A stretch of DNA of 64,000 bases, taken from NCBI GenBank assembly GCA_018268315.1, contig JAFDWU010000006.1:124001-188000 (forward strand), in the 5' to 3' direction. Positions 24,069 through 29,395 of this stretch are shown in pieces; within the stretch, counting starts at the first letter, position 1, and each line of letters starts with the position of its first letter. The notes under the pieces are model-generated. The model was not told the DNA's origin. It saw nothing but the letters and a program-made list of their open reading frames with translations, and searched no databases. This stretch comes from Armatimonadota bacterium. Its GTDB lineage: Bacteria > Armatimonadota > Fimbriimonadia > Fimbriimonadales > Fimbriimonadaceae. The translations under genes were made by a program, and so were the position numbers.

Positions 24069-24692
24069 ATGTCTTTGAAACTGAACATAAGCTTGCTAGC
24101 AGCAGCCGCACTGAGCGGCTCGGCGTTTTCAAATCTGGTTGTCAACGGGGATTTTGAGAACGAGCCCAACTATTCCTTTGGCAGTGGATACAATCTGTTC
24201 TTTGGAACGCAGATTCCCGGGTGGACCATTGCCGCCGGTCATGGTGCAACCATTCACGACACCACGACTTATCCTCACATCGCCGGATTTAGCCTGAACA
24301 CCGATGGCGAGGGTTACAACGGGCACAACGTTGATATGTCCCAGAACATCGCAAGTGTGAACGGCCTAGGATATGAGCTGAGCTTCGACTGGGAAGGCTG
24401 GATTGGCAGCCAGTGCGGATTTGAGATTTCAGTTACTGACACCGTTACGAATTCCGTGCTCGCCAGCGTTACGCGAAGCTTCTCTGACAGCCTGGTAGTC
24501 CATCACGAAGCCGCATCCTTTGTCGGTACCGGCAACGCGCTGAATGTTCGTATTTTCGAGAATCCGGAATCGACCTACAACGACAACTCGTTCATCATCG
24601 ACGACGTCGCCGTCAATGCGGTTCCAGAGCCAGCTTCGATGACTGCGCTTGCCGCTGGCATCGCAATCCTCATTAAGCGTCGCCGCAAGTAG
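24069..24692 (+). CDS. PEP-CTERM sorted secreted protein
   Basis: A 207-residue exported protein with an N-terminal signal peptide (MSLKLNISLLAAAALSGSA) and the three-part C-terminal sorting signal VPEPAS, a hydrophobic stretch and RRRK. Such proteins are processed by exosortase at the cytoplasmic membrane and displayed or released. The body begins NLVVNGDFENEP, the opening of DUF642/carbohydrate-binding-like beta sandwiches. GGAGAGG before the ATG is a good ribosome binding site. A strong terminator follows. No exosortase gene is in the window. A second PEP-CTERM gene lies at 47569. Confidence 0.88.
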   Translation: MSLKLNISLLAAAALSGSAFSNLVVNGDFENEPNYSFGSGYNLFFGTQIPGWTIAAGHGATIHDTTTYPHIAGFSLNTDGEGYNGHNVDMSQNIASVNGLGYELSFDWEGWIGSQCGFEISVTDTVTNSVLASVTRSFSDSLVVHHEAASFVGTGNALNVRIFENPESTYNDNSFIIDDVAVNAVPEPASMTALAAGIAILIKRRRK

Positions 24693-28765: not shown

Positions 28766-29395
28766 GTGCCGGTAAGCATTGAAGAGCTGAAAGGGCTGCT
28801 GCCCCCACCCGATACCGCCGAGGGAGTGCTGCGGCTCGTTCTTTCCTCGTGTGCCCGGGCAGAGACGGTGGAACCCAATTTCAGCCAATGCCCGAATTGC
28901 GACAAGCCGGTCGCTTCCGCGAGGACGCCTTACTGCAGCGAGTTCTGCAAGGAGATGTCCGCCTTCGTTCGCCAGTTCCGTAGCGCCCTGGCCACCGGGA
29001 TGATTCGCGAGCAAGAGCGCCAAATCGCGATGGGGCAGAAGCTGTGGCATCTGCTTGGCGGCGGGTATCCGCTGCGGCTAACGCTTATTCCGGAGAAGAC
29101 CAAGGCCAAGCTACTGCACGCAAGGCCATGCGCGGTGTGCGGCGTCGAGGCGGTCGGTTTCGATCACCTGGGCAGCGGTTGAAACCGGCCGATCAATCTT
29201 CGCGCGGTCTGCGCGAAGTGTGCGGTCACCAAACCCTTCGGCGATCCTGAGCTTCTCGCTCGCCCCGCCGTGCAGGCGCTGCTTGGTGAGCTTTCGGAGC
29301 GCGTTTGCGCGGCGGAGCCGCTTCGGGTTTGCGATGATCCCGATGGCTGGGATTGGCGGGCCTACCTTGCCCAGCGGGCGCTGATGACACTTTGA
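28766..29395 (+). CDS. Zinc-ribbon plus HNH-type protein, interrupted by an in-frame TGA
   Basis: The frame from GTG 28766 runs to a TGA at 29180-29182 and continues open in the same frame to TGA 29393-29395 (209 codons plus stop). The first part (138 residues) has CPNCDKPVASARTPYCSEFC, a zinc-ribbon, then the first half of an HNH/zinc-knuckle, CAVCGVEAVGFDHLGSG. The continuation gives NRPINLRAVCAKCAVTKPFG, the second CxxC half. Thus the codon lies inside one domain. Explanations are a nonsense mutation (pseudogene), a sequencing error, or recoding. The product is probably a metal-binding nuclease-like protein; no HNH catalytic His pair can be fully confirmed (DH is present). Confidence 0.75.
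29198..29218 (+). promoter_or_regulatory. Perfect hairpin just after the in-frame TGA (SECIS-like in position)
   Basis: An 8-base perfect stem (CTTCGCGC/GCGCGAAG) with loop GGTCT; the loop begins 23 bases after the TGA. Position, loop size and a G in the loop's first two positions fit bacterial SECIS rules as I know them. The same sequence also simply encodes NLRAVCAK, so chance is possible. Confidence 0.3.

Follow-up and report, generated by a model that had tools for sequence, protein, structure and literature searches.

The UGA codon at position 29180 of the window (the whole stretch of 64,000 nucleotides that was analysed) is almost certainly decoded as selenocysteine (Sec), and the gene that contains it would accordingly encode a selenoprotein. 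On the plus strand, the frame 28766-29395 starts with GTG and runs for 138 codons to the TGA at 29180-29182, continues for 70 more codons and ends with a second TGA at 29393-29395. A previous sequence-only reading had described this frame with its in-frame TGA, with CxxC...DH upstream and NLRAVCAKC downstream of it; all coordinates and distances were re-derived and are correct, and both motifs are present in frame. Since the gene's own terminator is TGA, UGA is also an ordinary stop codon in this genome. TGA-form genes of this family are split in two by automatic annotation. The predicted features are compiled in Table 1.

Table 1. Coordinates of the predicted features of the candidate selenoprotein gene in the window
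Feature	Position	Strand	Basis
Whole predicted selenoprotein gene	28766..29395	+	GTG start, 209 residues including Sec139, 41-member family alignment
N-terminal predicted zinc finger C42-x2-C45...C57-x3-C61, YacG-like treble clef	28889..28948	+	Weak NCBIfam YacG matches in 17/19 members; Cys invariant
Predicted HNH-fold domain, approximately residues 102-164: C122-x2-C125, D133-H134, U139-N140-R141, N144, C149-x2-C152	29069..29257	+	Actinobacterial PF01844 alignment, AlphaFold, VIA-align
In-frame UGA, predicted selenocysteine, residue 139	29180..29182	+	TGA in 22 homologues, TGC/TGT in 19
Outer part of predicted hairpin	29187..29227 (pairs 29187-29191/29223-29227 and 29194-29195/29219-29220)	+	Single-sequence fold only
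Predicted SECIS core hairpin	Stem 29198-29205/29211-29218, apical loop GGUCU 29206-29210	+	Covariation in 22 TGA genes; loop and spacing fit bSECIS model (PMC13188914)
C-terminal motif DDP..WDWR, residues 190-198, post-UGA	29333..29359	+	Near-invariant D190, D191, W195, W197, R198

When 61 genomes of relatives were searched with the read-through protein, 18 of them gave matches with approximately 45-54% identity, the majority likewise containing one internal TGA. A profile search covered 113 genomes of the class and 291 genomes of the phylum, and every clear member was taken. Altogether, 41 homologous genes were found in 40 genomes (39 Fimbriimonadaceae, Armatimonadota), and the family was thus confined almost wholly to one taxonomic family. 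At the codon of interest, 22 genes had TGA and 19 had TGC or TGT; no other codon occurred, and TAA and TAG were never seen. The TGA genes come from 21 genomes, are approximately 45-50% identical to one another and share the motif DHxGSG-U-NRPINLRAVC, and the Cys genes read D/E-H/N-x-x-x-x-C-NRP-I/L-N/H-L. As the site holds Cys wherever TGA is absent and never an unrelated residue, the alignment indicates that residue 139 is interchangeable with Cys only. On the best tree, built with the site left out, at least approximately seven changes between TGA and Cys are required (5-8 over bootstraps), of which well-supported branches force only two.

The part of the frame behind the TGA is maintained as well. 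In the closest pair of TGA genes (L089 and L090), dN/dS was 0.04/0.24 before and 0.07/0.33 after the UGA, and the values of other pairs were consistent with this as far as dS was unsaturated. These figures indicate similar purifying selection on both halves of the gene, and the decay of the reading frame that the earlier reading had considered was not observed. The post-UGA motif DDP..WDWR near the C-terminus is nearly invariant in the 41-member alignment. Judged from this conservation, the protein can exist only if ribosomes read through UGA 29180.

Some members of the family deserve separate mention. L090 (genome G097) contains an extra TAG near position 1444, 3' of the Sec site, that is absent from its close sister L089; it reflects either a truncated C-terminus or an error. 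Genome G052, which belongs to another family (f5) and has 6% contamination, contains two TGA copies (L120 and L019), one of them without the C-terminal motif, pointing to either transfer or contamination. Another member (L057) is found in a record titled Methanoregulaceae archaeon SJ84 (G010); a genome search puts this record in the bacterial family of the window, and the assembly is probably mislabelled.

Downstream of the TGA, the perfect 8 bp stem with the loop GGTCT was confirmed; it starts at the 16th base past the TGA, and 23 bases separate the TGA from the loop. The likeness of this loop to that of E. coli fdhF, which the sequence-only reading had suggested, turned out to be an identity in BLAST: a 48-base query matched fdhF in E. 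coli genomes, where the UGA is followed by ...TTGCA-GGTCT-GCACC.... The loop [N]G[U/C]NU at a distance of 23 nt satisfies the published constraints for bacterial SECIS elements (PMC13188914). A search of the region against Rfam gave no match. The window hairpin folds with -23.7 kcal/mol, which is only mildly better than in shuffled sequences (z = -1.69; 15 of 200 shuffles fold equally well) and therefore insufficient alone for claiming a SECIS.

The 22 TGA genes together gave a much clearer picture. In this set, 86% of the stem cells are paired vs 76% in shuffles, and five of the eight stem pairs have changed on both sides, for example CGC/GCG, GGC/GCC, CGG/CCG and CGG/TCG at codons 146 and 150. 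The covariation score reached 0.291 as compared to 0.130 in shuffled alignments, and none of 500 shuffles scored as high. In the same columns of the 19 Cys genes, 55% of the cells are paired, exactly the shuffled level (55%), so the stem is not imposed by the protein code. RNAalifold, unprompted, returned the same seven pairs for the TGA set (-10.5 kcal/mol) and an unrelated fold for the Cys set (-1.1 kcal/mol). The stem is imperfect or interrupted in four TGA genes (L019, L107, L111 and L123). Because TGA occupies the same codon in 22 genes, the stem covaries in these genes and it is absent from the Cys genes, the signal lies far above chance, and we infer that the hairpin 3' of the UGA is a SECIS element.

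The main alternatives named in the earlier reading, a nonsense mutation or a sequencing error, would make the gene a pseudogene or a misread and the hairpin a chance feature of GC-rich DNA. Such an accident would agree with the unremarkable score of the window hairpin against its shuffles; however, it leaves unexplained the same-codon TGA in divergent genes without any TAA or TAG, the purifying selection 3' of the TGA and the covarying stem. With 22 independent TGA genes a sequencing error is untenable, and the homologues refute both alternatives, to which we attach next to no probability. Pseudogene, sequencing error and reassignment of UGA as general explanations were ruled out in the same way, by the homologues.

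All four genes for selenocysteine synthesis and insertion for which the earlier reading had advised a search were found in the window genome. SelA (474 bits) and SelB (366 bits) were both above the cut-off, a tRNA-Sec with the anticodon UCA scored 75 bits, and selD was above the cut-off and contained an in-frame TGA and a hairpin of its own. SelA was found in 20 of the 21 genomes with the TGA form but in 8 of the 19 genomes with the Cys form (Fisher p = 0.0003, uncorrected for kinship); with phylogeny taken into account, the association between Sec machinery and TGA offered too few well-supported contrasts for significance. The sole TGA genome without a SelA match (G035) is incomplete (74%), but its selB and tRNA-Sec are above the cut-off and it contains a selD fragment with TGA. 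Within genus g19, SelA was present in the four TGA species, and the five Cys species were without SelA above the cut-off. Likewise, the Cys species G006, placed within a supported TGA clade, was without selA and selD, and its selB was not above the cut-off. With respect to its preferred interpretation, Sec recoding in an HNH-like protein, the sequence-only reading was supported: missing selenocysteine genes, unrelated residues at the site and a decaying frame, which it had named as counting against that interpretation and which were tested, did not occur.

The selD gene of the window genome (G000:C2:239148-240062, locus L130) reads VSGAGUASKLGQ across its in-frame TGA, and the hairpin behind this codon has a GGUUCUCC apex; most relatives have the same arrangement, and G005 and G108 have Cys at the TGA position. 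SelD (selenophosphate synthetase), a known selenoprotein family, thus shares with our gene the in-frame UGA, a hairpin whose apex is of the G-G-U type and Cys in some genomes, but is an unrelated protein. A Sec-type formate dehydrogenase was searched for in the window genome, with only sub-cut-off molybdoprotein matches, none of which had an internal stop.

A further explanation is that the UGA is read as another residue, by Trp/Cys reassignment or a suppressor tRNA, or that it is leaky without any SECIS and yields two products. The open frame kept in all 22 genes would suit this explanation, and so would partial termination at the UGA, which is expected of any selenoprotein. Against it, UGA serves as terminator of the window gene and of several homologues, and homologues without TGA have Cys only. 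The presence of tRNA-Sec(UCA), SelA, SelB and SelD together with a selD gene bearing the same kind of UGA, the absence of SelA from most Cys genomes and the specificity of the hairpin for TGA genes also speak against it, and we regard it as very improbable. For decoding as selenocysteine, the route can be drawn from the known bacterial mechanism: SelA would make Sec-tRNA(UCA) using the selenophosphate of SelD, SelB would bring it to the ribosome on binding the hairpin loop, and Sec would enter as residue 139 of a stand-alone protein of approximately 209 residues.

The origin of the protein was less obvious from direct profile searches. No NCBIfam model was above the cut-off in any of 19 members, and direct Pfam matches were below the cut-off, the second half showing weak resemblance to IscB and HNH. 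A tblastn search of plasmids matched actinobacterial HNH proteins (E 6e-13 and 1e-11, 30-33% identity in the search and approximately 25-33% across most of the protein), two of which pass the PF01844 threshold; one makes up the final part of a type I restriction subunit, and another adjoins a ligA. In the ungapped alignment of the active-site loop, DHIDGDSNDPENLQLLC vs DHLGSGUNRPINLRAVC, Ser stands opposite Sec. The AlphaFold model of the protein has a pLDDT of 95, and VIA-align related its second half to the HNH domains of Cas5-HNH, Cap5 and Cas9 with modest Z (maximum 5.1); Foldseek against PDB and BFVD gave nothing at E <= 0.001. The assignment is based on the sequence bridges together with the VIA-align Z values up to 5.1, which alone are weak. 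Homology to PF01844 and the predicted fold identify the family as an HNH descendant.

The plasmid-borne Actinomycetota proteins (WP_043795086 of Pseudarthrobacter chlorophenolicus and the C-terminal domain of the Frondihabitans HsdR-like WP_082764216) share the order of zinc finger and HNH domain and the spacing of the active-site loop with the window family. They differ in having Ser at the site, a canonical C-x2-C-H with the third His and no in-frame UGA. The best structural match of the model, the HNH domain of the Cas5-HNH Cascade (PDB 8zp7, 8yha; Z 5.1 over 65 residues), differs in being part of a CRISPR complex and in its longer loop without Cys or Sec. In the Frondihabitans type I restriction endonuclease subunit (L152, 2806-6564 of NZ_CP014516.1), the canonical two-zinc HNH module with Ser occurs as a C-terminal fusion.

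Within the family, the zinc-binding cysteines C122, C125, C149 and C152 around the active-site loop are invariant (41/41), as is (Sec/Cys)139-Asn140-Arg141. At position 134, 32 of the 41 members have His and 9 have Asn; at position 144, 32 have Asn, 8 have His and one has Lys. None of the 41 has the third HNH His, expected at position 153, and the catalytic His-Asn-His triad does not occur. The term "HNH-like" of the earlier reading thus held for descent and fold but not as an assumption of a nuclease: with the last catalytic His missing from all 41 members, nuclease activity is not to be assumed. Seven Cys genes and one TGA gene (L111) form a clade in which His and Asn have traded places between D-H and N-L (E-N...L-H-L); one His is thereby kept, but on the other side of the active-site loop. 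This swap at 134/144 argues against the canonical HNH mechanism. Together with the lost third His and the invariant (Sec/Cys)-Asn-Arg, the reappearance of His at 144 in the E133-N134 clade suggests that the active site was rebuilt and not simply lost.

Sec139 would sit in the loop connecting the D-H and N-L strands, at the Ser position of ordinary HNH relatives, and the protein would act on or bind nucleic acid. We see roughly even chances that Sec139 is part of a rebuilt HNH active site, either as metal ligand or as reactive residue; what makes this probable is the invariant (Sec/Cys)-Asn-Arg despite the lost third His. A redox-switch or structural role appears nearly as likely as this favoured one. 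Stated in full, this reading has Sec139/Cys139 either coordinating a structural zinc or controlling DNA or RNA binding through its redox state, in a protein that is not an enzyme; it is rated a little below even chances. Absence of the third His throughout the family and the exchange or replacement of H134/N144 in ten members would be expected if catalysis had gone, and a site with only Sec or Cys is typical of redox and metal sites. On the other hand, the HNH zinc site already has four invariant cysteines besides residue 139, the strict (U/C)-N-R, G99-G100 and D/E133 resemble an active site and not a spare ligand, and Sec is seldom retained for structural zinc alone.

More tentatively, the protein may still cut nucleic acid as an HNH nuclease, with Sec/Cys139 replacing the lost His as catalytic-metal ligand. 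The full-length similarity to HNH proteins, one a type I restriction fusion and one near ligA, is consistent with this, and so are the coincidence of His153 loss with Cys/Sec139 gain and the retention of D/E133 and one His (134 or 144) in nearly all members; nuclease activity of the protein is possible but rather doubtful. Similarly guarded is our suggestion of an enzyme that depends on selenium to act on nucleic acid, descended from HNH proteins but without their third His, in which Sec, or Cys in Sec-less species, would serve as metal ligand or nucleophile of a new DNA or RNA chemistry.

The majority of selenoproteins known so far are redox enzymes of the thiol type or metal oxidoreductases. 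A selenoprotein descended from HNH proteins would place selenium beside nucleic-acid chemistry, and the family provides a natural series at one site, from Ser in canonical HNH proteins to Cys and Sec, in which the Sec form turns back to Cys where the machinery is lost. With bacterial selenoproteins of the bSECIS type, such as E. coli fdhF, it shares the in-frame UGA, the interchange of Sec and Cys and the sel genes, the identical GGUCU loop of fdhF, and the hairpin at 16-37 nt with a G-rich apical loop. Sec in an HNH-like protein was expected by the sequence-only reading to be new, and the most comprehensive catalogue located, a 2026 review that lists 119 families of prokaryotic selenoproteins, indeed has no HNH, zinc-finger or endonuclease entry (PMC13188914). 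None of the listed families is a relative of an HNH or zinc-finger nuclease, unlike the window family, which has (U/C)NR in an HNH loop and no CxxU or UxxC. A 2025 deep-Sep paper and a 2022 review do not mention an HNH selenoprotein, and the open-licence full-text literature contained nothing relevant on selenocysteine with HNH, Fimbriimonas or Armatimonadota. As far as tested, the protein family and its Sec-bearing HNH fold are new, while the decoding mechanism is already known.

Finally, the surroundings of the genes were analysed. Clustering of the ORFs that lie up to 4 kb from each of the 41 genes gave no neighbour common to more than five loci, so no operon partner can be named. The PADLOC defence models gave no family match up to E = 1, and no relative of the family was found in phages and viral contigs. 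Seventeen viral contigs (L153-L169) fit the loose TGA pattern GGNTGAAAYMGNCCNATHAAY, probably by chance. Elsewhere in the window, the ORF at 24069-24692 combines an N-terminal signal-like stretch with the C-terminal VPEPASMTALAAGIAILIKRRRK, a PEP-CTERM-type sorting signal.
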